From a virus: 33,457 nucleotides of DNA. Shown here piece after piece: positions 8,883 through 31,456 of this stretch. A program made the position numbers and the translations under genes. Below the pieces are notes generated by a model. The model was not told the DNA's origin, ran no database searches, and worked only from the letters and a program-made list of their open reading frames with translations. Where the stretch lies: positions 1 through 33,457 of the IMG/VR virus record IMGVR_UViG_3300000116_000095. One strand, 5' to 3'. Each line of letters starts with the position of its first letter. Position 1 is the first letter of the stretch.

Positions 8883-9055
8883 AACAGTTATTACTTAGAC
8901 TAGGATTTGTTAAACTCGATGTTCTTTTAAAGGAACGCCTAAAATCCTTTGAACTAGAAAAGAAACTAAAGAGAATTGAGGAAAAAAAATCCTTTGAACT
9001 AGAAAAGAAACTAAAGAGAATTGAGGAAAAAAAAACATTAGGCAAGATCTCTTAA
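8876..9055 (+). CDS. small coiled-coil protein with exact internal duplication; possible first part of a frameshifted amidase
   Basis: This is a 59-residue ORF: a hydrophobic start (MLEQLLLRLGFVKLDVLLKERL) followed by two identical copies of KSFELEKKLKRIEEK and a short tail KTLGKIS. The two copies are the 45-bp tandem repeat at 8942-9031. The heptad-like spacing of Leu/Ile and the high charge indicate a coiled coil. The ATG overlaps the upstream stop by 7 bases. The frame ends 20 bases after an A9 run. A -1 slip on that run would carry ribosomes into the amidase frame, which has no normal start of its own. The protein may therefore be a coiled-coil N-terminal domain of the amidase, or an independent small protein. 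Confidence 0.6.
   Translation: MLEQLLLRLGFVKLDVLLKERLKSFELEKKLKRIEEKKSFELEKKLKRIEEKKTLGKIS
8942..9031 (+). repeat. 45-bp exact tandem duplication (2 copies)
   Basis: The unit beginning AAATCCTTTGAACTAG recurs after exactly 45 bases (copies 8942-8986 and 8987-9031). It is a multiple of three, adding 15 residues without breaking the frame. The lack of any difference between copies indicates a very recent duplication. Confidence 0.9.
9026..9036 (+). other. A9 slippery run, candidate -1 frameshift site (or homopolymer error)
   Basis: G, nine A's and C (9027-9035 all A) end the second repeat copy. In the upstream frame this reads GAA AAA AAA ACA. A -1 slip gives AAC ATT AGG, the frame of the amidase, which stays open to 9606. 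Conversely, one extra A would fuse the two frames outright. Either programmed slippage or a miscounted homopolymer would explain the missing amidase start. Confidence 0.5.
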
Positions 9056-13300: not shown

Positions 13301-13750
13301 CTTATGTTTGGTACTTTTGCAGCAGTTAAATTAAAAGCTGCTCAACTATCTAAAAAGAAGTTTAGTACTGGTGGTTATGAAAAGCTTGGAGGTGGATCGC
13401 ATGCAAGTGGAAAGGACACATACTTAGGTTTTGAAAGTGAGGGGAAACCAGCATTCGCTGAGAAAGATGAAGGTATAGCTATATTTAATAAAAAAGCTGT
13501 TAACAAATATGGTGATATTATACCTCAACTTGTAGAGTCTGCTAATAATCTACAGCTACATAATGTAATGGATAGACAGCAAGTTATAGCTAAAAGAATA
13601 AGTGTACAAGTCAATAATATATCTGATAATGCTAAAATGGAGTATTACTTAATGCAATTACTAGAGAATAGTAAGAATAGTTCTTACAACGAGAAAGACG
13701 GAACACCAGTAATAACTAGAAACAATGTAACTCAAAGAGTCCATGGCTAA
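10331..13750 (+). CDS. tail tape measure protein
   Basis: At 1139 residues this is the longest gene here. It sets tail length and helps DNA entry. The N-terminal 170 residues are coiled coil. The region about 200-370 matches the tape-measure N-terminal domain, with SSEELRLQLGERMPGALDIF and EVISAETLPAFARELE. Hydrophobic segments lie near 430-455, 495-511 and 981-1001. Residues 689-698 are ten consecutive Asp encoded by alternating GAT/GAC. At about 0.15 nm per residue the protein predicts a tail near 170 nm, so a long-tailed siphovirus. No lytic transglycosylase or peptidase motif was noticed. The start overlaps the chaperone stop; the stop overlaps the next start by 8 bases. Confidence 0.93.
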   Translation: MSNPVTNSQLYKDDGKLKELLKTLKEIHTVYATMSDGITNKAKALELALNGVNLKTDEGRRALKEAAAETSRLEKLTVKYNRALSNNAVDVARVNEEIKKLNRHNKLQATIVNSTATSYNRLKATYDSNIQRLKALSQGTRDNTAEGQRLIHVTQRMKNELRRLDDQFGRNRLSMIEQNTSASRLWGSLKNLVLTYLSITTVMRLANSVFRNTKSIDSLNFAYNQVIDTSAELVRSQQFIKDITTDLGLDYISTSKAYLKYRAAIKSTNLTIEESDKIFTSFAKASAVLGLSTSENKGVFLALEQMISKGKISSEELRLQLGERMPGALDIFAKSMGVSVMTLSDMLKKGEVISAETLPAFARELEKAYNITDVKTVDTLTAAQNRLNREWVLFVEFLEGSDAIKRVFDSLREGLVFIRSNFSTIVNLTKGVALVASAFVSWHAALLITNVAQRLSIGATIADIASKGLLAAATGAAARAQAAFNLVLKNNPYALVATVLATIISGLVLFEERVDKTKESLKNISVQAEQSIVAAKLKTEALVEVLKDENAEREDKVKALKELKKINKDYFGALDTEKSKITDIDDALKSYSASILVAAKAQAAINRIIQLEQELLDTDKLWEESETSLLDYATAAIKSGGNIFLLENRLQIQRAKNFQERKNQIEEEIAALGILADPKNIIPISTITDDDDDDDDDDKGKTDKQLEAAEKQITKMKDLAAEGQAILGGKAAEARLEYDKTIRKIDDMKAKLAEFNRDFKMDVKVDFSPTVQVADITLARKLDELLFAENDKIKDGFDILEEQIRKGLKFSVQSPLEEELAKSIPESFLAKNEARADELKKAVTSTFEDDVKDEGLFAAIGFKLGLDEDEIKGLQTTFSFVKKQLTSLASFRKKIADQEVTNSANEVRSKETALKNEIANRNAGYAHSVESATRDLDLAKDTQKKALKEQEKAQKQQLAAQAVQEAGNLVGAAAKIWYQLGFPFAIPAIALMFGTFAAVKLKAAQLSKKKFSTGGYEKLGGGSHASGKDTYLGFESEGKPAFAEKDEGIAIFNKKAVNKYGDIIPQLVESANNLQLHNVMDRQQVIAKRISVQVNNISDNAKMEYYLMQLLENSKNSSYNEKDGTPVITRNNVTQRVHG

Positions 13751-15878
13751 GTATAATATTACAATATCATATGATTCAGAGTCTTATACTACTCAACGAG
13801 GGTATGATAGCTCTAATCTATTTAATTATGACAAAGAGTCTGAATATGTTTTCTATAGACGTAGTCTTAATGCTGATTTAGTATTTATAGCTGAGGGTTT
13901 TTGGTTCATAGACAATGCTCCTTTTGAGACTAAGTTCGATCTATCTGTACAAGAAGTAGGAATTTATTCAGGATCTAACATAGGTGATCCTTGGATAGGT
14001 TTTTTCTACAAGACTGATTGCAAGTTTACTAAAACCACTAAAACCAAAAAAGTAATAGTAAAAGCTCAAGTAGAAGACGTGTATAAGAATGTATTAAATA
14101 GCTTAGACAAGGAAATTAACATTCTTAAGCATAGACCACTGACAACTAAAGTGAGTTATTCCAAGCAACCTTTAATCCAGATATATTTACCTGGCTCTTC
14201 GCTTATACAAAACATACTAGGTGGAGTTGTGTGGGAGTCAGAAGTTACACCTACTGAGAGTGATGCTACATTAACTAATGATTATTTATTCACTAAGTCT
14301 TTCGACAAGATAATCATAACAGGTTCAGAAGCTTCACTAGCTGAAGACATTTCAGGTATATACAATGGAGTCACTAAAGTGAGAGAGGATGGAGTTTATA
14401 CCATAATACAAGATACAGTTATACGTAGTATATGGTATGTGCGCAAAAATTCATCCGGTTTAAATGTTTTCACTGGTGGTGGGCTGGACACAGGATTGTT
14501 TGGTTTTCCACAACATTCTGACTACAATAGAACGTTCTTTAATGTAGCTGATATAACTGAACAAGTTAGAGCTTTTAGAGTTTCAGCTTATGCTAGAATA
14601 CTAACAGATGTTTCAAGTGGTAATCAAGTTATACCTGCAGTAGACATATCAGAATTTGGTTATACTCATGTAGCTTCATTAGTTACAACTGATTTTACAT
14701 TAAATGACACTAGCCAAACAACTAATAGCTCTTTTGGTCAGTTTGACAAAAATAGCATTCAGAATCCTGATTTATATTTTCCAGCTTATGATGATGTTAC
14801 TTATGGTAGAGCTACTCCAATTCTAAAATCGACTTGGAGCGAGTTCGCTATATGGTTTAGTTTAAACAGTGACCTAGTAGCTAAACAACAATCTTTAGCT
14901 GTTGAATATACAGATAGAACTACATATAAGCTGAGTGATGTTCTATATACTCTTTTAGAGGAGTTAGAAACTGGAACTACGTTCTTAGGTAATTCAGCTC
15001 ACTCACAGTTCCTATATGGTTTAGTCAATCCTATTTCTGGAATAGTAGAGCCTACACTGACCTTAACACCTAACAGTAATATATTAGCTGGAAACTATGA
15101 CACTCCAACTTCTAAAGCTAATATTAAGTTAGGTGACGTATTAACTATGCTTAAGAATGTTTATAACCTCGATTGGATTATAAACGAGGACAACAAATTA
15201 ATAATTGAACACTCATTATATTTCGAGAATGGAGGTAGTTATACAACAGCTACAGTAGGAACAGACCTTACAACACTAGTGCAACCAGCAAATGAATTGG
15301 TATGGAGTTATAGTACTGAAGAATGGGAATATGATAAAGCCGAAATGCCTGAACAAATAAGGTTCAAATGGCAACATAAAGTATCAGAGCCTTTTGATGG
15401 TTATCCAATAGATGTGATGAGTGCATTCGTGGAAAAAGGCAACATAAAGGAGAATAACATAGGTGTGTTTACTAGCGATTTAGACTACATGCAAGCTATA
15501 TCAGGTGAAATATCAAATGATGGTTTTACTTTATTGGGCGTGGATATAACTACAAATAAAGTAGCTTTTTTCAATATAGTTAAAAATGCTGAAGAATATT
15601 GGCTTATGCAAAATGGTCAACTATCACTAGTATACTTAGTTGATAAGTTCCACAAGTATAATTTACCAGCCGCGAACATTAAGGTTAATGAGGCTGTTAC
15701 TACAGCGACTACTGTCCAAAGAAATAAGATTCAGGAAGTTTCATTCCCATCGCTTGCTAACATAGATCCTATAAAGTTGATAAGAACATCGTTGGGTACC
15801 GGCAAAATAGATAAGATAGAAACTAACTTGAGTAGCAAACACATTAAAACAACTATACGACATGACACCGAGAGTTAA
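13743..15878 (+). CDS. tail tip / baseplate hub protein (putative)
   Basis: This 711-residue, largely beta-strand protein follows the tape measure, where the distal tail and tail-associated hub genes normally lie. Early residues include VFIAEGFWFIDNAPFETKFDLS. The middle includes the stretch LDWIINEDNKLIIEHSLYF, which is reminiscent of hub proteins that carry a receptor-binding or fibre-holding platform. No hydrolase motif is visible. Family assignment is by position and length, common in Bacteroidota siphoviruses. Overlap with the next gene is 17 bases. Confidence 0.6.
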   Translation: MAKYNITISYDSESYTTQRGYDSSNLFNYDKESEYVFYRRSLNADLVFIAEGFWFIDNAPFETKFDLSVQEVGIYSGSNIGDPWIGFFYKTDCKFTKTTKTKKVIVKAQVEDVYKNVLNSLDKEINILKHRPLTTKVSYSKQPLIQIYLPGSSLIQNILGGVVWESEVTPTESDATLTNDYLFTKSFDKIIITGSEASLAEDISGIYNGVTKVREDGVYTIIQDTVIRSIWYVRKNSSGLNVFTGGGLDTGLFGFPQHSDYNRTFFNVADITEQVRAFRVSAYARILTDVSSGNQVIPAVDISEFGYTHVASLVTTDFTLNDTSQTTNSSFGQFDKNSIQNPDLYFPAYDDVTYGRATPILKSTWSEFAIWFSLNSDLVAKQQSLAVEYTDRTTYKLSDVLYTLLEELETGTTFLGNSAHSQFLYGLVNPISGIVEPTLTLTPNSNILAGNYDTPTSKANIKLGDVLTMLKNVYNLDWIINEDNKLIIEHSLYFENGGSYTTATVGTDLTTLVQPANELVWSYSTEEWEYDKAEMPEQIRFKWQHKVSEPFDGYPIDVMSAFVEKGNIKENNIGVFTSDLDYMQAISGEISNDGFTLLGVDITTNKVAFFNIVKNAEEYWLMQNGQLSLVYLVDKFHKYNLPAANIKVNEAVTTATTVQRNKIQEVSFPSLANIDPIKLIRTSLGTGKIDKIETNLSSKHIKTTIRHDTES

Positions 15879-17058
15879 CTATAACCCTGTAGCTATATAT
15901 GATTCTCTGTCTTTACAGAATCATAGGCTTTCATACTCGTATGGAGATATAGCTCCTATTCCTGTATTGAAAGACAACATTTTGCCTTTTCAGTTTCCAG
16001 TGACTGTAGGCGGCAGTGTAACTGTTTTCAAGGTAGTTAAATTAGATGATGGTACTGAAACTGATATTCTATCTAACATTAATGCTAGCGGGCTACAAGT
16101 TATAGCTTTTGAAAACTACAGTTTAGTTGTTTACAATGCTACAGCAGCTCTTTCAGCTTCATTAGGAATAGGTAGATACTATTTCTATTTTACTGTAAGT
16201 GCTGTTACTTACTACTCTGAGGTATTTGCTTGGAGGGATTCAGTAGATGATTTAATTAAGATAGAAGCTTGGCATGGAGATAACATCAACTATGAAGGTG
16301 GATTGATTAGATACAGAGCTCCATACAAGTCAACTATATACATTCAATCTGATGTAGGTCAACCGACTTATCCTTACGAAGAAGAGGTACAGAAGCGAGA
16401 TGGAAGAAACTTCCCTATTCAGCAGATAAGTTATAAGCTACATAAGTTTATAATGCTTACTCCTGAGTATTTAGTTGATTTTATGAGGCTTATAAGAATA
16501 CATCATTTTGTTGAAATAACCTACAAAGGCCAAACTCACAAAGTAGATGAGTTTATAATGAATGATCCAAGCTGGCAAGGTAATGGAAACATAGCTAGTT
16601 TAACTATAGAATTTAAAACTGATTCTGTTATAGTTGAAAACTCTAGAGGTTTAGAAGATTTAACCTATGCTCAAGTTACTGTGCTTACTTCTTGTCCAAC
16701 AGCTATAGAAGGTAGGTATACTGACCATGCGGCAGCAGGTACTGGAGGTGTAGTCGCAGATGAATACTTTGCTATAACTTCTCAGTCTGGAATAGTTATT
16801 CAACTTGATGCAACTCAGTCATTTTATAATGATACTGAAGCTAGTGCTCAGTTAACAGAAGATAGCTGCTATGCAGTTGTGGTTGGTAACCAATATGCTT
16901 TACCTAAGAATGCTGTTAGAAAACTAAACCCTACATTGACATATAATACTGATGTCGATGCTACAGCTGGAGGTATAGCTGTAGATGGTATCTATTATAC
17001 TGGATTTTCCCATGAAAGAGCTGTTCCTTATGGCACAGCTGTAATACGTTTAACATGA
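15862..17058 (+). CDS. tail tip / baseplate protein (putative)
   Basis: This 398-residue beta-rich protein lies between the hub and the first exported fibre gene. About 170-270 (LHKFIMLTPEYLVDFMRLIRIHH, ITYKGQTHKVDEFIM) resembles domains in baseplate proteins at this position in related phages. The C-terminal 120 residues look like a separate small beta domain (LTSCPTAIEGRYTDHAA). It has no signal peptide, unlike the next gene, whose ATG overlaps its stop (ATGA). It marks the last cytoplasmic-type gene before the exported block. Confidence 0.5.
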   Translation: MTPRVNYNPVAIYDSLSLQNHRLSYSYGDIAPIPVLKDNILPFQFPVTVGGSVTVFKVVKLDDGTETDILSNINASGLQVIAFENYSLVVYNATAALSASLGIGRYYFYFTVSAVTYYSEVFAWRDSVDDLIKIEAWHGDNINYEGGLIRYRAPYKSTIYIQSDVGQPTYPYEEEVQKRDGRNFPIQQISYKLHKFIMLTPEYLVDFMRLIRIHHFVEITYKGQTHKVDEFIMNDPSWQGNGNIASLTIEFKTDSVIVENSRGLEDLTYAQVTVLTSCPTAIEGRYTDHAAAGTGGVVADEYFAITSQSGIVIQLDATQSFYNDTEASAQLTEDSCYAVVVGNQYALPKNAVRKLNPTLTYNTDVDATAGGIAVDGIYYTGFSHERAVPYGTAVIRLT

Positions 17059-18083
17059 AAAACTATATATTACTTTTATTTTTGGTTGCTTACTCTAATG
17101 TATATTGCCAAACTACTGATTCTTCAATTGATAAAGGCGTTGGTATCTATTACTTCACAGCTAAACCTGGTATCGTACCAGATGAGTCTTTTGGCTCTGA
17201 GATAGCAGTCAATATGCCAGCTAGAGTTTTATACTTATGGAATAGAACTGGAGCTAAGTGGGAACGATATGGCAAAATAAAATATGCTGATGGAGTTCCT
17301 AGTGGAGCACCTATAGACGATTCTTACATAGGTCAATACGACACCACTACCGGTAGGTTATATAGATGGACTGGAAACCAATGGATAACAGGATCTGAAA
17401 CTTCAATCTCTGTGGTAAGTAGTCCTATACTTTTTGATTCATCAGGCGTAATAGGTATAGACTTCGATAGATTAACTCAGGTAGATGTAGGAACCATAAC
17501 GAATACTATAATGGCCGATGAGACAGCTAGGATCGCTATAATAGATACTACTACGGCTCTGATTAATACATCAGATTTTACTGATCTACAAATAGTTAAC
17601 TTAACAGACAGGATAGTAGAAACAGACGATGCTATATCCAACATAACTAATAATGCTATCGATATTAAGAATGAATTGATAGTCAATGCTACAGGTACAG
17701 ATGCTTTTGTTAAGTATACAGGCAAAGCTCCAACATACTCTGGTAACCTAGGCATATATACTATGACGTTTGACATAGATAGTACTAATATTAAAAGTTG
17801 GAGGTTCGGAGGAGGTAGTAACGATAATATATGGGATGGTAGTGGAGACATGCAAATCAACGTAGTGTTATCTAATGCTAGTCCTACGTTGTCTGAACTC
17901 AATGCTATATTTGGAAACATACAATTTATAAATGCAGGTAACGGAGAAGTGATTAGTGATTTAAAAGCACAATTTCAAGTATCTTTATTTCAAGAAGCTA
18001 CATCATCTACTACTGTTCAGATGAGAGCTTCAAACCTAACAGGTTTTGGAACAGAGGGATTTAAAATGATTATAACGTATTAA
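17055..18083 (+). CDS. exported tail-fibre-region protein with Q-rule signal peptide
   Basis: This is a 342-residue protein. MKNYILLLFLVAYSNVYC forms a short basic start and a hydrophobic core, and predicted signal peptidase I cleavage before Q19 fits the Bacteroidetes Q-rule. The mature part begins with a region resembling fibre-tip attachment domains (YLWNRTGAKWERYG, LYRWTGNQW), then a helical/Thr-rich stalk (about 145-210) and a C-terminal beta domain. Its place directly after the baseplate genes and before collagen-like and S74 fibres implies a virion appendage. Why a phage structural protein should enter the Sec pathway is unclear. No T9SS C-terminal domain is seen. Confidence 0.6.
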   Translation: MKNYILLLFLVAYSNVYCQTTDSSIDKGVGIYYFTAKPGIVPDESFGSEIAVNMPARVLYLWNRTGAKWERYGKIKYADGVPSGAPIDDSYIGQYDTTTGRLYRWTGNQWITGSETSISVVSSPILFDSSGVIGIDFDRLTQVDVGTITNTIMADETARIAIIDTTTALINTSDFTDLQIVNLTDRIVETDDAISNITNNAIDIKNELIVNATGTDAFVKYTGKAPTYSGNLGIYTMTFDIDSTNIKSWRFGGGSNDNIWDGSGDMQINVVLSNASPTLSELNAIFGNIQFINAGNGEVISDLKAQFQVSLFQEATSSTTVQMRASNLTGFGTEGFKMIITY

Positions 18084-18085
18084 AC

Positions 18086-18853
18086 ATGAAAAGAGTTGTA
18101 TTTATATTAGTTTTAGCTTTATTAGCTTTCAACTCCTATGGACAGTTTAGAGCTAAGGTAGATTGCCAAGGTTTCACTTTGTTAGCTGATTCTACCTATA
18201 CAGGAAATTTAATAAAGTTTGTTGATCAAACCAATAATAACTTTCTGCCTATAAACACGCAAGTAGATTATGTGTTGACTGATGCTTCATATAATAACTA
18301 TGTTATTGATACTATACACAGTTATACTTTTACTAGCTTAAATGTTACAGTGACAAAATTGGAAGGAGGTAATAACTTCGCTCCATTAGGTATAAGCCAA
18401 ATAAGTAAAAACTTTGAAGAAGGCTTTATAGCTGTAGTTCCACAAAACAAAGACGGTATAAGTCCAGTTGTGAAGAGTTCAATTGAAAGTCAGAACTATA
18501 AACGAATGGCTGATTCGTTGCATTTTTTATTGGACCGGTCTATAGATTCTATAAAGTTTGAGAACGATAGCATTAGTGTTTATTACCATAGAAAGACTAC
18601 AGGTAGAATACGGTTAGGTGACGCTATAATTTCGGTAGACACCCTTACGGCGTCCTCTGGGAGTTATATAGACGTTTCTTTTGATCTACCTACCACCAAC
18701 ATAGAAAACGAATTAGAGGTCATTAGAGATGGCTTTTCGTGCTCTTACTTGAGAGACTATACAATAGGATTAGATGGTGCTGGAGATAGAAGACGGATAA
18801 CATTTGTGATTGATTTGCTATATGAATTTGTAAGAGTAAATTTAAGATTATGA
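18086..18853 (+). CDS. exported hypothetical protein in fibre operon
   Basis: This is a 255-residue protein starting two bases after the previous stop. MKRVVFILVLALLAFNSYG is a clear signal peptide, with predicted cleavage before Q20. The mature protein is beta-rich, with one charged helical segment around 145-170 (MADSLHFLLDRSIDSI) and a C-terminal strand-rich part. No family is recognised. It is coupled to the next exported gene by ATGA overlap. A fibre accessory or surface protein is likely from context only. Confidence 0.55.
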   Translation: MKRVVFILVLALLAFNSYGQFRAKVDCQGFTLLADSTYTGNLIKFVDQTNNNFLPINTQVDYVLTDASYNNYVIDTIHSYTFTSLNVTVTKLEGGNNFAPLGISQISKNFEEGFIAVVPQNKDGISPVVKSSIESQNYKRMADSLHFLLDRSIDSIKFENDSISVYYHRKTTGRIRLGDAIISVDTLTASSGSYIDVSFDLPTTNIENELEVIRDGFSCSYLRDYTIGLDGAGDRRRITFVIDLLYEFVRVNLRL

Positions 18854-19443
18854 GAAAAATATTTATAGCTTTTATGTTTTTGTATGCTGTTAACTTATCA
18901 GCTCAGGTACCATGCTCAGTAGACAGTATAGGTATTAAAGACTGTGTGATAGGTGAATACCAATATATTATACCTGTTTTTGTAGGTACTACTGGAATAG
19001 CAGATAGTGTGAAGGTAGAAGCTACAGGTTTAGACTACGACTTTCAAACACAGTACTTTAGAATGTATCAATCTTTTTCAAATCCAGGTAATGTAAATAG
19101 CTTTCATTTTCCTATCTATAGTTATGCAGATCAGATAGTAAATAATGTGGATGTAAAAGTAACATTGATTGGAGGTACGTGTGATGAGTCTACGGATTTT
19201 TTAATGGTTACACTAGGTATAGATGATCCACTATGCTTTTGTACTGAGTTTAGAGTTTTAACAGGTACGCTTAATGCGAATAAGCTATATTATGCTAGTG
19301 ACTACATAAGCAGTAGTCAAAACATTCTGAACGGAAATACTGTTTTATATTCAGCAAATAATTATGTAGAATTAACCGATGGCTTTATCTTAGAAAATGA
19401 TGCTATCTTAGAAATAAATGATACAGGATGCGTATTAAACTAA
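18850..19443 (+). CDS. exported protein with adhesin-like C-terminal beta stack
   Basis: This is a 197-residue protein with signal peptide MRKIFIAFMFLYAVNLSA, cleaved before Q19. The mature part has two pieces: an Ig-like beta region (about 25-130), then a C-terminal segment with periodic repeats (NANKLYYASDYISSS, YSANNYVELTDGFILE) ending NDTGC. That periodic pattern, ending in Gly/aromatic-rich strands and a final Cys, resembles the '3-coathanger stack' type domains found near the ends of Bacteroidota secreted proteins. Seven Cys residues in the mature region could form disulphides, consistent with export. The end overlaps the next gene by 16 bases. Confidence 0.55.
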   Translation: MRKIFIAFMFLYAVNLSAQVPCSVDSIGIKDCVIGEYQYIIPVFVGTTGIADSVKVEATGLDYDFQTQYFRMYQSFSNPGNVNSFHFPIYSYADQIVNNVDVKVTLIGGTCDESTDFLMVTLGIDDPLCFCTEFRVLTGTLNANKLYYASDYISSSQNILNGNTVLYSANNYVELTDGFILENDAILEINDTGCVLN

Positions 19444-21980
19444 TTATATTTTTCAGTTTATTTTGCTTTATGCTTTCAGCACAGAATGAAGGTATGAACT
19501 ACTATTTGATTAAGCCAGCTCCTAATCAAGGGTATGTTTTGTATTCAGCCGATATGGGAGGTAGGTTTTCTCCTGCTCTACTATCAGAGTTAGTTGACAC
19601 TTCAGGTGTGGGACTAGACTCTATAGTTACTCAAAACCAGATGGTTGCCATATCGCCTATGCTTACACAAGGTGGAGATACTACAGGAACCATTTTTATG
19701 TTATCCGGTTCAGGTGGTCAACTATATTATAAAAAAGGCTGGGGCGTTGATATTCAAACAGACGGATTGAGTACGATTATTAATTCTGATTCGACTACCT
19801 TAGATCTAAGATTCTTTAAACTAAATACTGGAAATGCTGTATTAGACACTCTAGGTTTTATAGCTGATACTCTAGATGTATTTAGAGATTCAATCGATAG
19901 TCATGAAGAAAGGTTAGACACAATAGAAGCAAATATCAGTGATAACCAAACACTAAGTTTTGTGTTTCCAGACCTTACTATCTTAAGAGGAAATACTGTT
20001 AGCCTTTCATCTTTAAGGGAGTGGGCTAACATAACAGGTAAACCAGCTACCTTTGCTCCGTCAAGCCATACACACATTGAAAGTGAAATAACAGATCTCA
20101 CTCACTTCACTTTCGCTGATGTATTAGCTGCAGACGGAACAGGTAGTACTTTAGATGCTGATTTCCTAGATGGACAAACAGGCACTTACTATCTAGATAA
20201 TACAGATGGCCAGTTAGTCAGTTGGGATGCTGTGCTTAATCAACTCACAATATCAGGAGGTAACACAACTACTTTAACAGGTTTCTCAGAATCAAGTCAT
20301 ACACATACGGAAGCTAATATAACAGATTTAGACCACTATACAGACGCTGATATAAGTGGAAGTGAAACAGCTTTTAGCGGATGGGATAAAGATGTTAGTG
20401 ATGACTTTGATGGGGTATATTCTAGTTTAACAGGTAAACCAACGACAATCAGTGAAGCTCAGGCGAGTGCCATAACAGCTAATACTGCTAAGGTCACATA
20501 CCCTAGTGCTGATGCCTCTAAACTCTCAGGAATAGCAGCAGGAGCTGAAGTCAATGTACAGAGTGATTGGAATGCAGTTTCAGGTGATGCTCTTATATTA
20601 AATAAACCTAGTTTGTTTGATGGTAACTATAATTCACTTTCAAATTTACCTAGTCTGTTTGATGGTAACTATAATTCACTTTCAAATTTACCTAGTCTGT
20701 TTTCTGGTAGTTATACAGACTTAATAAATAAGCCTACAATAAACAATCTTATTACAACTGGATTAGGTTTAGATTTAGAGGCAATAAATACAGAACTTTA
20801 TTTGAATTTTGCAGAATTGCCCACGGATGACACTCCTATAAGTACCTCTTATTTTGTGTATGCTGATGCTACAGAAGAAAAGAAAATTTCATTAACAGAA
20901 TTTAATGCTGTTATAGCCCCTACATGGGCAAATGTTTCAGGAAAGCCTACGACAATCACAGCAGGACAAGCAAGCGCAATAACGGCGAACACGGCAAAGA
21001 ATACCTATCCAAGTGCGGATGCTACAAAATTGGCGGGAATTGCCACAGGTGCGGAGGTCAATGTAAATGCGGATTGGGATGCCACTACAGGGGATGCCTT
21101 GGTTTTGAACAAGCCTAGTCTGTTTTCTGGTAGTTATACAGATTTAACAAATAAGCCTACTATAAACAACTTAGCAAGCGCCAACCAAACACAAACGGGC
21201 GCAAATGGAAGTACTAGAATATATAGTTACTATAATAAAGGGCTTTGGTTTGCTTCTAGTGGTACAGGTAGCGCATTCACGGTGCAAGCAAAAGATATAG
21301 GAATTGCAGCAACAGCAGGAGGCAGTATTTTAATAGATGGGGAAGGCGGTACAGTAAATATTCAGCCAGCCAGTGGTACGAATGTGGGCGGATTTATGAA
21401 AAATATAACTACATTTGGACAAGTCGAATTTGAAAAAATCTTAGGTACAGATGTAACCGTTACAGACCCCACCACGGCAGGAAATAACGATTTGAATACA
21501 GCACTATCTAATATAAATAGTAATGTAGGAGCACCAGGTCAGCAAGGTCCGCAAGGTCCAGAAGGTCCAGAAGGTCCAGAAGGTCCGCAAGGTCCAGAAG
21601 GTCCAGAAGGTCCAGAAGGTCCACAAGGACCAGCAGGTGTAATAACTATAGGTTATCAAGATGTTCAGAATGGAGCAGACCCTTCATTAGCCTCTTTGAC
21701 AGGATTAAATGAATTGCATGTATCTGTTTTTAGTTCAGTAGGAGGATCAAGTCAAATATTTTTCCCAGAAGCTACTAGTGCGCTAAGAGGTAAAAAGGTT
21801 TACATTACATCTGATGGAAATGGTACATATCAAATAAATAGTGATTTTGCTAATATATACATAATGCATAAGGGAGCTGTTGGAAGCGTCCAAATAAATG
21901 ATCACAGCCCTACAACTGTAATTTGTATGAAATTAGGCTCAGGTTCAGCTTATTATTGGCAAGTCTATAAATCCAATTAA
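19428..21980 (+). CDS. tail fibre with fibre repeats and collagen-like segment; Q-rule signal peptide
   Basis: This is an 850-residue fibre. [18 protein letters not shown] is followed by Q19, a signal peptide. The body carries [12 protein letters not shown] and [12 protein letters not shown] motifs and phage-fibre repeats [17 protein letters not shown] and [15 protein letters not shown]. Tandem [14 protein letters not shown] units and repeated NKPTINN segments follow. Twelve Gly-X-Y triplets (GPQGPEG type, 21528-21638) come next, and a C-terminal domain of about 110 residues that may be the receptor-binding tip. Codon use changes sharply inside the gene (see repeats). Fibre repeats and collagen triplets normally trimerise. 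This is the leading candidate for the host-range fibre. Confidence 0.8.
20448..21174 (+). repeat. two diverged fibre repeat units with different codon use, flanked by near-identical DNA
   Basis: The unit at 20448-20618 and the unit at 20955-21125 (507 bases apart) encode closely similar peptides ([27 protein letters not shown]). Many synonymous sites nevertheless differ: TANTAK is aca gct aat act gct aag in one and acg gcg aac acg gca aag in the other. In contrast, the following segments at 20691 and 21114 (423 bases apart, in frame) are almost identical DNA over about 57 bases. This pattern suggests an imported unit joined by recombination at the shared segment. Confidence 0.75.
20616..20699 (+). 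repeat. 42-bp tandem repeat (2 copies) in fibre gene
   Basis: TTTGATGGTAACTATAATTC starts at 20616 and again at 20658, a 42-base period. Each copy encodes the 14 residues [14 protein letters not shown], and the third, partial unit at 20700 diverges to [13 protein letters not shown]. The two copies are identical and in frame, so this is a recent slippage or recombination event that lengthens the fibre. Confidence 0.9.
21528..21638 (+). repeat. collagen-like Gly-X-Y repeat in fibre
   Basis: Twelve triplets, mostly GPE and GPQ, are encoded by near-perfect 9-base units (ggtccagaa/ggtccgcaa). Such segments form collagen-like triple helices in phage fibres and match its trimeric nature. Codon repetition makes this an expansion and contraction hotspot. 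Confidence 0.9.
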
Positions 21981-21981
21981 C

Positions 21982-23835
21982 ATGAAAAATATAATTTTAG
22001 TTTTTCTGCTATTTGCCTTATGGCAAACATCTTATGCTCAATTAAAAGTCATCAGTGGTGATGTCCACATAGGTGGTTCTAGTCCAACCGAAAAGCTGAC
22101 TGTCAATGGAGCTATAAACCTAGGAACAACTGCTAATAGTAATGCAGGAACTATTCGATATTTGAGTAACGTATTTGAAGGGTACAACGGAACGGCTTGG
22201 GTAGATTTGTCTAGTCCTTCAAAGTGGACACTAGCAGGTAATAATATTTATTTCAATACGGGCAAGGTCGGAATAGGCGGAGCACCAGCTACAGCTTTTG
22301 AGATTAAAGACAATGGTTCACGAATGCGTTTCCAGCGTTCAAGTGCAATTGATGGAATTGTAATAGGAGATAGCGAGCAAAATTTTGCTATTGCAACAAG
22401 GGTGCAAGGAGCAGGAGCAACTCCAATCAATTCTTATTTATTTTTCAATCATAGTTTAGGCAATTTTGGCGTTAATACACTCTCCCCCACAACTGATTTT
22501 CATATTCAAGGCGACTTTAGACTAACAGGAGGGTTTTATGATAGTTTTGTTTCAACAGGTTCTATTGGACAAATATTGACTTCAACTATTACGGGCACAA
22601 AATGGAGAAATTTATCGGAATTAGGGCAATGGTTAGAAAGCGGCAGTAATCTATATACTTTGGGTAATGTAGGCATAGGCACAACAACACCATTCGCAAA
22701 ACTAGACGTAAACGGTGATGCCTTAATAAGCAGCATCGACATAGGCAAAGGGAATAATGAATTATCAGATAATACCGTTTTTGGCGTATTGGCAGGAACG
22801 GCAATAACAAGCGGAAACTACAATACTTTTATAGGGAAAAATACAGGCATAGCGAACACGACAGGCGAAAAAAATACATTTTTCGGCAGACAAGCAGGGT
22901 ATAGTAATATAACAGGTAGCGATAATGTATTTATAGGACACCAAGCAGGGTATAACGAGACAGGCAGCGACAAGCTATATATAGACAATTCTAGTACCTC
23001 AACGCCCTTGATAGGGGGTGATTTTGCTACGGATGAAATAACGGTAAATGGGGATTTAATCGTAAAAAGTGGGGAGGGTATTAGTCTACCAACAGCAGGA
23101 AACGGAATAGGGTTTGGCTCAAGTGACCTATCCAACGAGACTTGGAAAATGGAGTGGGGAGGTAATAGGGAGTTATCTTATTATAGAAATGATACTAACA
23201 AAGTAGCTGGATGGGTAGGAGTATCTACCCAAGGCGCCCGTTTTGCAATGTATCAATTTTCTTTAAGAGGGACGGCAGACAATAACCCCGCCTATTCTTT
23301 TTTACAGGATGGCGATACTGGTCTAGTTCGATATGACGCAGATGAAGTCGGGCTAGTGACGGGCGGAGTAACTAGATTAATTTGCATGGCAGACGGTGAC
23401 ACGGGAATAGGAACGGACGCACCAAGCGAAAAGCTAGACGTTAACGGGAACGCCCGATTTAGGTCGATAGGTTCGGGAACAAGTTCGGGGGCTTTGCACT
23501 ATGAAAGTGACGGAACATTGACTACAAATACTTCTGACATAAGATTGAAAAAGAACATAACTAGAATCAAGTCTCCAATCAAAAAGGTACAACGCCTAAG
23601 AGGTGTAAAGTATAGTTGGAAAGACAGCAACGATGCGAGTAGACAAATAGGATTAATTGCACAAGAGGTAGAAAAAGTAGTTCCTGAGTTAGTTTTTACT
23701 AATCCAGTTGATGGCTATAAAGGAGTACACTACGATAAAGTAGTAGCTCTATTGATAGAAGCTATGAAAGGACAGCAGATACAGATTGAAGCTTTGCAAA
23801 AAGAAGTAAAAAGGTTATTAAAAAAAAGTCGTTAA
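21982..23835 (+). CDS. tail fibre with C-terminal Peptidase_S74 chaperone; Q-rule signal peptide
   Basis: This is a 617-residue protein. MKNIILVFLLFALWQTSYA precedes Q20, a signal peptide. The body has repeated fibre motifs (VGIGTTTPFAKLDVNG, GIGTDAPSEKLDVNG) and YadA-like beta-helix units (NTFIGKNTG, NTFFGRQAGYSN, NVFIGHQAGYNE; 22820-22990). The last 100 residues begin SDIRLKKNI and contain GVKYSWK, QIGLIAQEVEKVVPEL and YDKVVALLIEAMK. This is the intramolecular chaperone auto-processing domain (S74), which trimerises fibres and cuts itself off before S518. A terminal coiled coil follows. Codon choice in 22680-23470 is richer in GGC/ACG/GCA than in the tail genes, suggesting an acquired body on a native C-terminus. 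Confidence 0.88.
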   Translation: MKNIILVFLLFALWQTSYAQLKVISGDVHIGGSSPTEKLTVNGAINLGTTANSNAGTIRYLSNVFEGYNGTAWVDLSSPSKWTLAGNNIYFNTGKVGIGGAPATAFEIKDNGSRMRFQRSSAIDGIVIGDSEQNFAIATRVQGAGATPINSYLFFNHSLGNFGVNTLSPTTDFHIQGDFRLTGGFYDSFVSTGSIGQILTSTITGTKWRNLSELGQWLESGSNLYTLGNVGIGTTTPFAKLDVNGDALISSIDIGKGNNELSDNTVFGVLAGTAITSGNYNTFIGKNTGIANTTGEKNTFFGRQAGYSNITGSDNVFIGHQAGYNETGSDKLYIDNSSTSTPLIGGDFATDEITVNGDLIVKSGEGISLPTAGNGIGFGSSDLSNETWKMEWGGNRELSYYRNDTNKVAGWVGVSTQGARFAMYQFSLRGTADNNPAYSFLQDGDTGLVRYDADEVGLVTGGVTRLICMADGDTGIGTDAPSEKLDVNGNARFRSIGSGTSSGALHYESDGTLTTNTSDIRLKKNITRIKSPIKKVQRLRGVKYSWKDSNDASRQIGLIAQEVEKVVPELVFTNPVDGYKGVHYDKVVALLIEAMKGQQIQIEALQKEVKRLLKKSR

Positions 23836-23868
23836 ATCATAAATCATTAAAATTAAAAACTTATAAAC

Positions 23869-24522
23869 ATGAAAAAGCTATTATTCTTAAATATATTCAT
23901 ACTCATTTTAGTAAGTCTTAGCGCACAAAATTACGAGCTGGTAAAAGACCCCGTAGATACAACGTTATTTATTATTAGTCAAAGTGAAGATTTACAACCA
24001 GCCGAGGACCAGGAGGCAACGGGCAAAGATTCTGCCAGAACGCTAAATAAATTATTTAGGCTAATTGGTAACGAATATTTGAATATTTCGCAATTAGAAC
24101 AGGAACTTGAAAGAGCAAAAAAGAGCCTAAAAACATTAGTGAAATTACCCGAGAAAATCAATCCAGATACTAGCTATTCAGATTTTGCAGAAGCAAAGCA
24201 CCTTAACAAATGGCTTGGCGAATACAAGTTTTTTGTTGAAACAGTAGATACTTTTGACGTAGTGATTGACCAGACAGCAGGGGGCAACGTGCGAATAAAA
24301 GAAGATATAACACCAGCCAACGCCGCAAGGAAATACAATATTTCGATTAATTCAGAAAGAGGTCTAACTATAAAAAAACTGGACATAGGCGATATTGAAT
24401 ATAAAATAAATTTGAATCAAAACCCACTTAATCCGAGGGTATTCAATTCGAGCAACTACGATGTAAAAAGCATCAATTCGAGCATATTTATACCACGTGT
24501 AAAACTACGGCGCAAAAAGTAA
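23869..24522 (+). CDS. exported hypothetical protein after fibre genes
   Basis: This is a 217-residue protein. MKKLLFLNIFILILVSLSA precedes Q20, a signal peptide. A coiled-coil segment (ISQLEQELERAKKSLKTLVK, about 65-85) lies in the first half, and the second half has beta-prone and basic stretches ending RVKLRRKK. No family is recognised. The 33-base upstream gap is AT-rich with no Shine-Dalgarno site. It could be a fibre chaperone, a periplasmic lysis helper or a surface protein; only the export signal and coiled coil are seen. Confidence 0.5.
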   Translation: MKKLLFLNIFILILVSLSAQNYELVKDPVDTTLFIISQSEDLQPAEDQEATGKDSARTLNKLFRLIGNEYLNISQLEQELERAKKSLKTLVKLPEKINPDTSYSDFAEAKHLNKWLGEYKFFVETVDTFDVVIDQTAGGNVRIKEDITPANAARKYNISINSERGLTIKKLDIGDIEYKINLNQNPLNPRVFNSSNYDVKSINSSIFIPRVKLRRKK

Positions 24523-24558
24523 AAACCTTTTATTATCTATCTACAAAATTATAAATCC

Positions 24559-24852
24559 ATGCAACAGGTTATCCAAACAATCAAAGAAAGTTGGGAGGCA
24601 ATCGCCGTAATTATTACGGGTTTAGGGGGATTTGTTGGGACATACTTAAAATGGAAAAGAGACCAAAATAAATCCACTGCTATGCTTTACCAAGAGTTAG
24701 AAAGGTTAAAAAAGCTTATCATAGAGAAAGTTCCAAAGGATATACAGAATGCTCAGACAATAGCAGAGCAAAATTCTCTATTGGAACAGCTTAAAGAACA
24801 TTGTCCAGAATGCTACGAAAAAATTAAAAAGCTAAACAATGTGCAATATTAA
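24559..24852 (+). CDS. small membrane protein with cytoplasmic or periplasmic coiled coil (lysis-module candidate)
   Basis: This 97-residue protein has one hydrophobic segment at about 12-30 (AIAVIITGLGGFVGTYLKW), then a basic stretch and a charged coiled coil. HCPEC occurs near residue 80. A short N-terminus, one membrane helix and a coiled coil resemble phage lysis accessory proteins (antiholin/spanin-like). It lacks the lipobox or cleavable signal of its neighbours. It lies between exported fibre-region genes and a probable holin and overlaps the following gene by 14 bases. Confidence 0.5.
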   Translation: MQQVIQTIKESWEAIAVIITGLGGFVGTYLKWKRDQNKSTAMLYQELERLKKLIIEKVPKDIQNAQTIAEQNSLLEQLKEHCPECYEKIKKLNNVQY

Positions 24853-25249
24853 AGATGCTTTAGTAATAATCTCTGACATAAATCTCATATTGAGCTTAAA
24901 ATGGGATAATTTCATCTCATTTGAAAAGATTAAGTCTTGGCCTTTAGATGAGACTAGGAGTATAGAAGGAGTAGTAAACGTTAATATTCTACACAGCAAT
25001 ACGCATTGTAGGTTTTTAACTATAGTTCCTCCATTGAAATCCTTTAACATTCATTGGCATGATTGTTTTAAAACATGTAATGTTTTATCAGGCACAATGG
25101 TTGATGCAGAGAAAAATACAAAGCACAAAGTTGGAGAAACATCCAGCTACAAAGCTTTTGAGAAGCACATTCCTAGTAACCCTAGTGGTACCGACTATTT
25201 GTACCTAATAGTGGACTTTTATTCGCGTTCTAAGGAATCCTTTTTTTAA
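24839..25249 (+). CDS. cupin-like small protein of unknown role
   Basis: This 136-residue protein has a segment at about 65-90, PPLKSFNIHWHDCFKTCNVLSG, that matches the cupin motif pattern P-P-x5-H-W-H-D-x2-K-x3-V-L-x-G. A later segment KVGETSSYKAFEKH (about 97-110) could supply further metal-binding or core residues. This fits a metal-binding cupin fold. No enzyme is implied. The start ATG lies inside the upstream gene. Composition is Cys- and His-rich (HCRFL, HDCFKTC). A cupin in a phage lysis/fibre operon is unexpected. Function is unknown; fold assignment is moderate. Confidence 0.5.
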   Translation: MCNIKDALVIISDINLILSLKWDNFISFEKIKSWPLDETRSIEGVVNVNILHSNTHCRFLTIVPPLKSFNIHWHDCFKTCNVLSGTMVDAEKNTKHKVGETSSYKAFEKHIPSNPSGTDYLYLIVDFYSRSKESFF

Positions 25250-25344
25250 TTCCATGTATTCCTATGGAAAATTTAATTGGACCCCTTAGGTCTATTGTTA
25301 TGTATATTAGAATTAATTATTTATTCACATTAAAATTCATAAAC

Positions 25345-25767
25345 ATGAAGTTCCTAAAGAATTTAATATTATTCACGTGCTTGAGCATATTCTCATGCAC
25401 AGCTTTTTCACAATCAGTGGCAGATAGCGAAGCACCTACTACTGAGACATCTGTTCAGATAGATGTACCAAACGGAGACGTATTCGATGGCGAAAAGCCT
25501 GATTTAGATCTAATTTTGAATTGGTACAATGGCCTTATAGCTTTATTAACAATGCTATGGGGGTTCATTGCCAAAGCTTTCAAGATAGATAAGAAAGTAA
25601 ATAACTTTGTATTTGTAGTCCTAGCAGGTGGAATTGCTATTATAGCTATATTTGTATATTGGGGACTAGCCGGTGGGATAACAGCTGCTCTATCAGTTTT
25701 AACAGCTATGGGGATTTTTGACCTATTCAAAGGCGGAGTTAAACTAACAGCGAAAAAAGAATCATAG
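25345..25767 (+). CDS. probable holin with Q-rule signal peptide
   Basis: This is a 140-residue protein from ATG 25345; the frame is open to 25264, but that extension lacks a signal-like start. The N-terminus MKFLKNLILFTCLSIFSCTAFS has a hydrophobic core and predicted cleavage before Q23. A second possibility is lipidation at C18. Acidic residues follow, then a hydrophobic helix (about 58-78), a short basic loop (KIDKK) and a long hydrophobic stretch (about 87-128) ending in a basic tail. Size, two or three membrane spans and position at the end of the late operon suit a holin. Bases 25250-25344 upstream are AT-rich, with a weak 6-bp hairpin (25250-25269) and no clear promoter. Confidence 0.6.
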   Translation: MKFLKNLILFTCLSIFSCTAFSQSVADSEAPTTETSVQIDVPNGDVFDGEKPDLDLILNWYNGLIALLTMLWGFIAKAFKIDKKVNNFVFVVLAGGIAIIAIFVYWGLAGGITAALSVLTAMGIFDLFKGGVKLTAKKES

Positions 25768-25789
25768 TCTTCGTGTTTAATTGAAAATA

Positions 25790-25826
25790 GGCTAGTAGGT
25801 TGTGCTTCCTACTAGCCTTATTTTAT
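25790..25826. terminator. bidirectional terminator between converging operons
   Basis: GGCTAGTAGG (25790-25799) pairs perfectly with CCTACTAGCC (25808-25817) across an 8-base loop. T-rich tails flank both sides (TTATTTTATTT on the + side, TATTTTCAATT read on the - strand). It sits between the + strand late operon and the - strand replication operon, so it can serve both. Confidence 0.88.
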
Positions 25827-26012
25827 TTAGTGTCTAGCCTCTGCGCAATCATCACAAATCAATCTATTCTCGTTCCCATCAATATAGATTAAGTGAGTAT
25901 AGATAGATTTGCTTTCTTGCCAATTGCGGTTACAATCATAACAGGTTCTAAAGCATTTTCGGTATTTAATGTTACTAAGCATATCAACGTACAGTTTGAA
26001 TTGATAAATCAT
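25827..26012 (-). CDS. small Cys4 zinc-finger-like protein
   Basis: This 61-residue protein is the last gene of the leftward operon. C-x2-C (CYDCN) and a second C-x2-C (CDDC) near the C-terminus are separated by about 26 residues, consistent with a zinc ribbon. The first half is basic/aromatic (MIYQFKLYVDMLSNIKYRK). It starts within the upstream stop (ATGA at 26009-26012). The role is unknown; DNA-binding or protein-binding accessory is possible. Confidence 0.55.
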   Translation of the reverse strand: MIYQFKLYVDMLSNIKYRKCFRTCYDCNRNWQESKSIYTHLIYIDGNENRLICDDCAEARH

Positions 26013-26272
26013 TTTTTATTAGCATAGTTATTTAAAGCTCCCATGTATGCTACAGCATCTAGGAGATTATCTTCTTTGTGACTGTGCTTCTGCCTAGATA
26101 GCTTTAAGGCTAACATAGCCATAAACATATCTTCAGTTGTTAATTTATAGCCAGTCATAGCATTAAATATGTCTCGCATACTATCCATGCTATCTGAGAA
26201 GGATCCATACTGGCGTTTCTTCTCTTCAGACCGTTCGTTAACAATACGGTTGGCTTCTTTTAAGATATTCAT
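26009..26272 (-). CDS. Nmad1/DUF1599-like small protein (nucleotide-pool or modification associated)
   Basis: This 87-residue helical protein has the pattern NERSEEKKRQYGSF, KLTTEDMFMAMLALKLSR and EDNLLDAVAYMGALNNY. The order 'ER...YG', 'lT..D....m..lK..R', 'ED...D...Y' is what I recall for the DUF1599/DUF6378 group, linked to nucleotide modification and related to all-alpha NTP pyrophosphohydrolases. The C-terminal half EDNLLDAVAY would supply acidic metal ligands. It is co-transcribed with a dCMP deaminase and replication genes. The family match is from memory. Confidence 0.5.
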   Translation of the reverse strand: MNILKEANRIVNERSEEKKRQYGSFSDSMDSMRDIFNAMTGYKLTTEDMFMAMLALKLSRQKHSHKEDNLLDAVAYMGALNNYANKK

Positions 26273-26399
26273 TTATATAGCTTTTATGCTTCGAGTATAA
26301 AGCATTGTCAATAAAAGATAACTTTGCCATTATAGTGTACTTAGGCAAAGTTACTTTAAAAATTCTAAATCCTTCTTTATTATTTAGTTTAATAGTCAT
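26238..26399 (-). CDS. 53-residue hypothetical protein, strongly coupled small gene
   Basis: Read on the - strand from ATG at 26399 to TAA at 26238-26240: MTIKLNNKEGFRIFKVTLPK, then YTIMAKLSFIDNALYSKHKS, then YINEYLKRSQPYC. The start overlaps the upstream stop as ATGA (26396-26399), the same coupling used at other joints of this operon, and the end overlaps the next gene by 35 bases. Without it a 123-base gap would break an otherwise gap-free operon. No family is recognised. Confidence 0.6.
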   Translation of the reverse strand: MTIKLNNKEGFRIFKVTLPKYTIMAKLSFIDNALYSKHKSYINEYLKRSQPYC

Positions 26400-26638
26400 C
26401 TTCTTAGTTTTTTAGCTAACTTGATTCTATCCTCAAGTATAGCGATGAGTAAATGGACATTATCTAGTTTATACCAATCATGTAATTTCAATATAGCACT
26501 AAAGTAATAACCTTCTATGTCGTTAGTATTTCTCACTAACCTATAGTCTGTTTGCGTTTTTCTATTTAAGCCTTCATTCCTTAAAAACTCCCAATATGTT
26601 CTTATGTTAGGAGATAATACTGCAATAGGTTCTTTCAT
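26396..26638 (-). CDS. hypothetical protein
   Basis: This 80-residue soluble, helical protein is basic at its C-terminus (LEDRIKLAKKLRR), with aromatic segments YWEFLRNEG and LHDWYKLDN. It starts three bases after the upstream stop, and its own stop overlaps the small gene downstream as ATGA. No family is recognised; it is likely an early accessory gene given its operon. Confidence 0.55.
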   Translation of the reverse strand: MKEPIAVLSPNIRTYWEFLRNEGLNRKTQTDYRLVRNTNDIEGYYFSAILKLHDWYKLDNVHLLIAILEDRIKLAKKLRR

Positions 26639-26641
26639 GAT

Positions 26642-27058
26642 TTAATTTTTTATGTTAACTGAAATAGGTAAGAACACCTTACCTGCTGTATACTGATTGA
26701 CCCACAGCTTTTTAGTTCTAAATATTTCTTTGAGTTGCTTTTTATCTAAATTAAAGATCCAAGTTACTGGATTGGTTCTATCTATACGCTCACCAAAAGC
26801 AACTCCACCTGCACTAGCGCAAGCCTCAAGTCCCATCAAGCCTATTGTAACAGGCTGTAGATCTTCATTGAAGGTTAACTGCGTAACTGTAATACCTGAC
26901 GTTTCATAGAGTTGAGCTAATTCATTATCAGTCAATTCAAAACACATGCTATATGGAACCGATATGTTGTTTCTATGCTTGAAAATATATAAACTTTCAT
27001 AGTCTTCTTGGTCTTCAGCTAATACACAGTTGTGACCCGCAAATTTAAATGACTTCAT
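26642..27058 (-). CDS. hypothetical phage protein in replication operon
   Basis: This is a 138-residue mixed alpha/beta soluble protein. A Gly/Ala/Cys-rich segment MGLEACASAGGVAFGERIDR lies about the middle, followed by a short helix and a beta C-terminus (VFLPISVNI). No catalytic pattern is recognised. Its start overlaps the dCMP deaminase stop by four bases (ATGA). A nucleotide or host-takeover role is possible from context only. Confidence 0.5.
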   Translation of the reverse strand: MKSFKFAGHNCVLAEDQEDYESLYIFKHRNNISVPYSMCFELTDNELAQLYETSGITVTQLTFNEDLQPVTIGLMGLEACASAGGVAFGERIDRTNPVTWIFNLDKKQLKEIFRTKKLWVNQYTAGKVFLPISVNIKN

Positions 27059-27456
27059 ATTTTAGTTAATGTTACCCCAGCTTTAATTAGAAGTTTAACT
27101 CCTTCTGAGCTTCTATACTCTTTTCTGTATACAACTCTAATTATACCGGATTGGATTATAAGTTTAGCACATTGAATACATGGAACCACTAAGGTATAAA
27201 TAGTAGCTCCTGCAGAACATCTAGTAGATTTAGCTAATTTGGTTATAGCATTAGCTTCTGCGTGTAAAACATGAGCATAGGTATTACCTTCAAAATCTTC
27301 ACATGTGTTATCAAAACCTGAAGGAGTACCATTGTAACCGTCAGATATTATAGAACCGTCTTTAACTATTATAGCTCCTACTTTCAATTTCTTAGCATAA
27401 GAATTGAGGCTCCAAATTTCAGCTATTTCCATATAGCGTTTATCTAAATTCCGCAT
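27055..27456 (-). CDS. dcd-like: deoxycytidylate (dCMP) deaminase
   Basis: This enzyme converts dCMP to dUMP, feeding thymidylate synthesis for replication. The 133-residue protein shows the zinc-dependent cytidine/deoxycytidylate deaminase signature HAE at 65-67 with E67 as proton donor, and PCIQC at 92-96 (zinc Cys 93 and 96). GYNGTPSGFDNTCED (40-54) is characteristic of the dCMP-specific branch. It may respond to dCTP/dTTP as in other family members; this is not visible from sequence. The start overlaps the helicase stop by 17 bases. Confidence 0.92.
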   Translation of the reverse strand: MRNLDKRYMEIAEIWSLNSYAKKLKVGAIIVKDGSIISDGYNGTPSGFDNTCEDFEGNTYAHVLHAEANAITKLAKSTRCSAGATIYTLVVPCIQCAKLIIQSGIIRVVYRKEYRSSEGVKLLIKAGVTLTKI

Positions 27457-28840: not shown

Positions 28841-29102
28841 CTATGAATTTTTTTATTGTATCGTGGTTATCAATCACCCTAACATCAAATCCCATATAGC
28901 GTAGTTTCCTATGATATACGAGTTGTAGCTTTCTAGGCTTTTCACCTGGAGCTTTTACTTCCACGAATATAACTAAACCAGTAGGAAATAAGCACATTCT
29001 ATCAGGTATTCCACCTTCAAATTCAGCACTAAGCTTAATGCACCTACCTCCAATTTCTTTGACTTTCTTTCTTAGGTAGCTTTCTACTCTAGATTCTAAC
29101 AA
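28800..29102 (-). CDS. VRR-NUC domain nuclease
   Basis: This 100-residue stand-alone VRR-NUC (PD-(D/E)XK fold) protein has GIPDR with D34, FVEVKAPG with E48 and K50, and Q60 after KPRKLQ. These are the expected metal-binding and catalytic residues. Viral VRR-NUC proteins cleave branched or flap DNA in replication or recombination. It sits between the primase-helicase and the SNF2 helicase in the operon, overlapping both by 14 and 41 bases. Confidence 0.9.
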   Translation of the reverse strand: MLESRVESYLRKKVKEIGGRCIKLSAEFEGGIPDRMCLFPTGLVIFVEVKAPGEKPRKLQLVYHRKLRYMGFDVRVIDNHDTIKKFIDEVKEIIARVSSK

Positions 29103-31455: not shown

Positions 31456-31456
31456 A

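Follow-up and report, generated by a model that had tools for sequence, protein, structure and literature searches.

The morphogenesis of tailed phages is taken to be cytoplasmic. Virion proteins that are made with Sec signal peptides are known from the filamentous phages, whose coat proteins are synthesized in this form, and in their case the entire particle takes shape in the membrane, from which it is extruded. Here we describe the 33,457-base siphophage-like contig IMGVR_UViG_3300000116_000095 (the window, by which we mean the whole stretch of DNA analysed), in which seven late genes, most of them in the fibre region, carry a host-style signal peptide with Gln at the +1 position (SP-Q). 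Unlike the filamentous phages, this is a tailed phage with head and tail proteins that have no signals; the signals are restricted to the adhesion and lysis part of the genome.

The Q-rule of the Bacteroidetes refers to Sec signal peptides followed by Gln at +1, and on average 71% of the host substrates of signal peptidase I (SPI) follow it (Bochtler 2018, PMC5837995; Szczesniak 2023, PMC10653852). The pyroglutamate at such N-termini has been reported to stabilize extracytoplasmic proteins (PMC10653852). Q-rule SPI substrates have been described on bacterial proteins, whereas in the window phage they are encoded by fibre genes. In phages of Porphyromonas gingivalis, five genes of unknown function follow the Q-rule, and the authors of that study suggested that their products might alter the outer membrane of the host (PMC10367356); these are likewise phage-borne but, unlike those of the window, are not linked to tail fibres or virions. 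A study of North Sea flavophages ascribes, in one sentence, “signaling peptides” to those proteins of Ingeline and Nekkels that bear a lyase, and the accessible part of that article draws no model of export or assembly from it (PMC8776804). These two papers, which mention phage signal peptides in passing, are the prior art; our literature search, with subscription journals mostly outside its coverage, returned no account that treats SP-Q fibre modules as a group of their own or ties them to virion assembly. Further counterparts are found in sequence records. Cultured Cellulophaga phages have SP-Q runs between their tail and lysis genes as the window does, many of them annotated by tandem mass spectrometry (MS/MS), but they use pectate-lyase fibre families and belong to other phage families. 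Peptidase_S74 (“tail fiber domain”) proteins of the Bacteroidota share both S74 and SP-Q with a window fibre, but are chromosomal.

The signal peptides were searched for with an in-house detector of n-, h- and c-regions rather than with SignalP. Since the detector favours Gln at +1, the rates in the controls, which were run with the same code, hold for a signal peptide with Gln. Among the 33 genes called in the window it found exactly the seven that the initial annotation had listed, all of which exist as open reading frames: 17055, 18086, 18850, 19428, 21982, 23869 and 25345 (named here by their first base). They lie between the tail-tip gene and the point at which the rightward late operon stops. 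Each start has a basic n-region, a hydrophobic h-region and small residues at -3 and -1, as in Q-rule SPI substrates, and the predicted sites read, in gene order, VYC↓Q, SYG↓Q, LSA↓Q, LSA↓Q, SYA↓Q, LSA↓Q and AFS↓Q; for 17055 the signal and the Gln stand, with the correction that the residue before Gln is Cys. The remaining 26 called genes have no SP-Q, non-Q or lipoprotein-type signal by the same detector. Neither is there an SP-Q gene in the extra 10.9 kb of a sister record, IMGVR_UViG_3300025645_000147 (42,394 bases), which is 99.8–100% identical to the window over 1–20608 and 22899–33457. In the controls, SP-Q starts were seen in 2 of 2904 spurious open reading frames and in 0.16% of genes with shuffled N-termini. 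At rates below 0.2%, seven such starts among 33 genes have a binomial P of ~1e-13 or less, and the earlier statements that seven matches are very unlikely by chance, and that fibre-region genes bear host-style signals, are both borne out, the latter also by conservation in relatives. The Gln at +1 in seven of seven is by itself unremarkable for host-like signals, given the host average of 71% (0.71^7 = 9%). The seven are almost certainly functional Sec signals.

Two further readings of these proteins were considered and dropped. Exclusion lipoproteins of the Llp/Cor type have a lipobox with Cys at +1; the detector called no lipoprotein-type signal in the window, and with no lipobox the lipoprotein reading was given up. 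The reading as cargo of the type IX secretion system (T9SS) was dropped for want of a supporting domain, as no T9SS C-terminal domain was matched in Pfam or NCBIfam among the SP-Q proteins. The initial annotation had noted the absence of a clear T9SS domain, and to that extent it was right; however, 18850 does bear a C-terminal sorting-type domain, GCX_COOH.

All seven genes are on the plus strand. The first, at 17055..18083, encodes a fibre-like protein of 342 aa (signal peptide 1–18, VYC↓QTT), followed by a 255-aa protein at 18086..18853 (1–19, SYG↓QFR) and by the 197-aa GCX_COOH protein at 18850..19443 (1–18, LSA↓QVP). The gene at 19428..21980 encodes a long fibre of 850 aa (1–18, LSA↓QNE) with phage shaft repeats and collagen Gly-X-Y, and that at 21982..23835 a fibre of 617 aa (1–19, SYA↓QLK) with a C-terminal Peptidase_S74 chaperone, in which an SDIRLK motif is found at 518. 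A collagen-like and an S74 fibre were thus rightly placed among the SP-Q genes. Fibre domains (shaft repeats, collagen, S74) were recognized in these two proteins and not in 17055, 18086, 18850 or 23869. The sixth protein, of 217 aa, is encoded at 23869..24522 (1–19, LSA↓QNY), ahead of the lysis-region genes. The seventh, at 25345..25767, is a holin-like protein of 140 aa (1–22, AFS↓QSV, then two hydrophobic segments); its start is an internal ATG within an open reading frame listed from 25264, and the holin assignment comes from a weak PHROG match (E 0.044). Searches of phages and of Bacteroidota genomes (297 for 17055), the latter run without a positive control, gave no homologue of 17055, 18086 or 23869, and for 18850, which was searched in phages only, none was found in the phage collection. 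Within the shaft of 19428, the window has internal repeats of ~175–195 bases at 20435–21140. The sister record stops inside these repeats with a variant tail, and the number of repeat copies may vary within the population.

The SP-Q genes sit in the late operon directly after the gene of a 398-aa tail-tip protein (15862..17058, plus strand; PHROG 35885, tail fibre protein family), which has no signal peptide. This is the place expected of a virion tail fibre or adhesin, and the genome, taken as the window plus the extra 10.9 kb, has no conventional fibre gene without a signal peptide. The tail-tip protein has a 143-aa C-terminal extension that, among the loci compared, is seen only in the window phage and in one close relative that has SP-Q proteins as well; on these comparisons the extension is a candidate docking site for the exported fibres.

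That relative is G302 (3300022072_000001; the same phage is also in 3300022061_000008), which was found together with G301 (3300000101_000053) by a search with the S74 fibre. The G302 counterparts are 46% (17055), 66% (18086), 56% (18850), 72% (19428, as aligned) and 33% (23869) identical to those of the window, and its S74 fibre is 89% identical to 21982 over the first 360 aa. All the cassette homologues of G302 keep the signal peptide, and all but the 17055 homologue keep the Gln. G301 is 95–100% identical to the window at the protein level in the head genes and from the S74 fibre rightwards, with the head and lysis/replication genes at ~100%, and differs between the tail region and the start of the S74 gene. 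The order there is an 814-aa SP-less protein, SP-Q versions of 18850 (41%) and 19428 (27%), the S74 fibre (95%) and 23869 (100%), and the last two retain their signals as well. Close relatives having the same fibres without the signals had been named as the case that would speak against export. G301 and G302 keep the signal peptides, the single loss being that of the Gln in the 17055 homologue of G302. The swap in G301 moves the fibre versions together with the adjoining tail region, as is expected of tail parts.

Two details of this comparison deserve mention. Residues 694–814 of the 814-aa protein are homologous to the C-terminus of 18086 (~105 aa; 33% over 121 aa, E 3e-11), which suggests a common docking or assembly domain that may be SP-less in G301 and exported in the window phage. 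The 814-aa protein gave no significant match to the family of the 711-aa tail protein in a profile comparison, so that its tail-tip role is assigned by position. In 23869, the DNA of the signal peptide is identical in G302 (60/60 bases) while the remainder differs, the whole proteins being ~33% identical. The signal segment thus seems to recombine as a unit; the identity is no evidence for codon-level selection.

The strongest evidence came from a survey of cultured Bacteroidota phages. Phage phi10:1 has five consecutive SP-Q genes, gp091–gp095, and gp091–gp094 are annotated “experimental MS/MS proteomics”; the mature gp094 is predicted to start at +1 with pGlu-TVEGTVGSDGSLIPYNVSGGLDETAVDTK. 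Homologous SP-Q modules are found in phi19:1, Nekkels_1, phi19:3, phi46:3 and phi18:3. In phi19:1, gp101–gp104 are MS/MS-annotated, with gp101–gp103 being SP-Q and gp104 having a signal with Lys at +1; in phi18:3, gp085–gp087 are both SP-Q and MS/MS-annotated. Together, phi10:1, phi19:1 and phi18:3 have ten SP-Q proteins that are MS/MS-annotated as virion proteins; the annotation of phi46:3 and phi19:3 was mostly transferred from a similar, related phage. We presume that the MS/MS annotations originate from Holmfeldt et al. 2013. The phi10:1 group is assigned to the Assiduviridae and Pachyviridae, and in Ingeline, of the Duneviridae, four SP-Q genes occupy this position. No SP-Q module was found in phi46:1, phi18:1, 11b or the first 50 kb of phi38:1.

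A natural domain swap allows the signal to be followed through one enzyme. The pectate-lyase domain of phi10:1 gp093 (residues ~120–777) is preceded by SP-Q N-termini in phi19:1, in phi19:3 and in Ingeline, and by another SP-Q start in phi46:3. In phi4:1 gp052 (49.5%) and crAss-like phi14:2 gp083 (44%), both of which are MS/MS-annotated, the N-termini ahead of it are SP-less. Because the same domain occurs with and without a signal, the signal tracks the N-terminal part of the fibre and not the enzyme. This part of a fibre is usually the region of attachment to the virion.

Other features point to a location outside the cytoplasm. 18850 matches NF045639 (GCX_COOH, 3-coathanger stack) at 33.5 bits, with a cut-off of 26, and its C-terminus ends in GCVLN; the matches of its homologues are weaker and fall short of the cut-off. 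Of 118 genomes sampled from the phylum to which G003, a Bacteroidetes metagenome-assembled genome (MAG), belongs, 9 had GCX_COOH above the cut-off, and none of 14 control genomes did. Mature 18850 has six Cys, all of them conserved in three lineages, and both Cys of 18086 are conserved in G302. The host-type domain of 18850 and its six conserved Cys are consistent with a place outside the cytoplasm. S74-type relatives are present in 65 of 248 genomes of the same phylum, and most of these chromosomal proteins are SP-Q where the start appeared inside the fetched locus. Strong support for export from the cytoplasm comes from the Q-rule sites, GCX_COOH, the conserved Cys of 18850 and the SP-Q homologues of the S74 fibre in hosts.

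We propose that the host-attachment module is encoded as Sec/SPI pre-proteins that obey the Q-rule of the Bacteroidota. At a late stage of infection, the fibre proteins would cross the membrane via Sec and be cleaved ahead of Gln, a residue that the glutaminyl cyclase of the host would convert to pyroglutamate. The mature fibres would then fold, trimerize and form disulfides outside the cytoplasm, in the periplasm, while the virions built in the cytoplasm would end in the SP-less tail-tip protein. Docking of the mature fibres on the tail tip would take place at or after lysis, once the envelope opens. The signals, their conservation, their restriction to one part of the genome and the MS/MS-annotated equivalents in isolates are observed; cleavage and pyroglutamate formation, the place and time of docking and presence in the window virion are what we infer. 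For the mechanism as a whole, from export and SPI cleavage to pyroglutamate, outside folding and late docking, we see a little better than an even chance. That the seven proteins are virion components of the window phage is quite probable on this analysis, a virion role being favoured because equivalent SP-Q proteins are MS/MS-annotated in isolates. Surface display, late attachment and a decoy or exclusion function had all been offered earlier; the Cellulophaga equivalents favour presence in the virion over a purely decoy or exclusion role.

Several points weigh against the proposal. Judging by phi4:1 and phi14:2, export is unnecessary both for making the lyase and for placing it in a virion. 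The MS/MS annotation in GenBank is silent on the removal of the signal peptide, and exported proteins could co-purify with virions. The disulfides would be drawn from one strong case, 18850, and one weak, 18086, and AlphaFold gave no usable structure for 18850 (predicted local distance difference test score 38). Finally, no SP-Q fibres were found in ~65 viral contigs and MAG loci, nor in the isolates, that share the 711-aa tail protein.

It is worth weighing the alternatives against the same evidence. The proteins could be exported without being part of the virion, as secreted or surface adhesins, depolymerases or decoys that alter the infected cell by receptor masking, superinfection exclusion or polysaccharide removal; the virion would then bind its receptor with the extended 398-aa tail-tip protein. 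GCX_COOH being a domain of Bacteroidota proteins, the SP-Q nature of the chromosomal S74 relatives and the occurrence of the tail-tip extension only with the SP-Q cassette all suit this explanation. It is nevertheless unlikely, as the MS/MS annotation of three isolates counts ten SP-Q proteins of their fibre modules among the virion proteins, the phage would be left without a conventional fibre, and 19428 has phage shaft repeats.

Alternatively, the tail may be assembled in the cytoplasm in the ordinary way, with the hydrophobic N-terminus kept as a membrane-active or docking segment and its likeness to a signal peptide secondary. A nearly identical signal and short following stretch are common to different Cellulophaga fibres, as would be the case for a docking segment, and in phi4:1 and phi14:2 this function is served by SP-less N-termini. 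Yet an exact Gln at +1 with small residues at -1 is the cleavage rule of the Bacteroidota and would otherwise be purposeless, different signals of the same layout head homologous proteins, and such signals would route the chains to Sec; we consider this explanation improbable. Recent capture of host genes, with the signals as functionless leftovers, would agree with the SP-Q S74-type proteins that are common in Bacteroidota chromosomes and with GCX_COOH as a host domain. It is very unlikely, however, considering that the signals are retained on homologues at 27–72% identity in three lineages, that four of the proteins had no recognizable homologue in our searches, which for 18850 covered phages only, and that the same pattern recurs in several phage families. 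Chance hydrophobic starts or a chimeric assembly, for which we saw no evidence, can be rejected, since most of the region is alike in separate records, the same pattern is seen in isolates and the control rate is below 0.2%, against 7 of 33.

The tail genes themselves place the phage in a broader family. The 711-aa tail protein (13743..15878, plus strand; phrog_19383), which is SP-less, puts the phage among the B40-8/B124-14/P2559S/PDS1-like siphophages. Its relatives, at ~26–34% identity, are in phages of Bacteroides, Parabacteroides, Alistipes, Croceibacter and Elizabethkingia, in 75 viral-contig loci (the sister record included) and in 6 MAG loci. The related phages with named hosts infect Bacteroidota, which concerns the relatives and not the host of the window contig itself. 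In the isolates and the long-enough contigs, the gene after the tail tip is usually an ordinary SP-less fibre; in SP-less relatives with readable sequence, a large fibre is the usual occupant of this slot. SP-Q was scored in 15 of 1221 genes of these loci, four of them holin-like and the rest mostly single-transmembrane, lysis-type (spanin-like) proteins or scattered weak calls. SP-Q fibres as a general trait of the tail family are therefore rejected with ~65 loci lacking them, though one distant member has a run. In this member, L192 (41–14005; the same in L193), an SP-less fibre-type gene is followed by SP-Q proteins of 394, 625, 1407 and 112 aa, the 1407-aa protein being similar to the S74 fibre of the window, and a 224-aa protein (LNG↓Q) scores only with its first residues left out. 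L192 is possibly an intermediate architecture. The four SP-Q holin-like proteins (~131–134 aa; signal, short linker and two hydrophobic segments) are in the related contigs L036 (1358–1753), L053 (2020–2418), L073 (1648–2052) and L074 (342–743). Their genes lie just upstream of a major-capsid-like gene, far from the lysis genes, whereas 25345 of the window is at the end of the late operon.

The remainder of the window has packaging and head genes first, then the tape measure gene (10331) and the tail; beyond the SP-Q region come lysis-type genes and a replication block that runs leftward. Short tandem repeats with several open frames lie upstream of the first packaging gene, at 1–110 in the window and ~20820–21470 in G001. 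An overlapping direct repeat of ~49 bases is found at 8941–9034, beside a reading frame ending at 8882; G301 and another relative, G303, stop at or near it, which suggests an assembly-breaking or strain-variable repeat. A 114-aa protein at 9262–9606, amidase-like as read by eye, is placed between the head-tail and tape measure genes and not among the lysis genes, and its G302 counterpart is 83% identical with a longer N-terminal stretch. Between two lysis-region membrane proteins, a 136-aa protein at 24839–25249 is 60% identical in G302 and maybe cupin-like, again by eye.

Whether the scheme extends further is, in our estimate, evenly balanced: several unrelated families of tailed Bacteroidota phages may split their assembly, with heads and tails made in the cytoplasm and an adhesion module passed through Sec, SPI and glutaminyl cyclase, matured in the periplasm and added at or after lysis. 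If true, the synthesis of virion fibres as Sec pre-proteins would bring a further compartment into the morphogenesis of tailed phages and would account for disulfide-bonded or host-derived surface domains in virions. The stability that pyroglutamate is reported to confer would suit a particle that persists outside the cell. A signal peptide with Gln in a run of fibre genes would serve as a sequence hallmark of adhesion modules, and of the likely host phylum, in metagenomic phages, and the idea is testable in the culturable phages phi10:1, phi18:3 and phi19:1 of Cellulophaga baltica.

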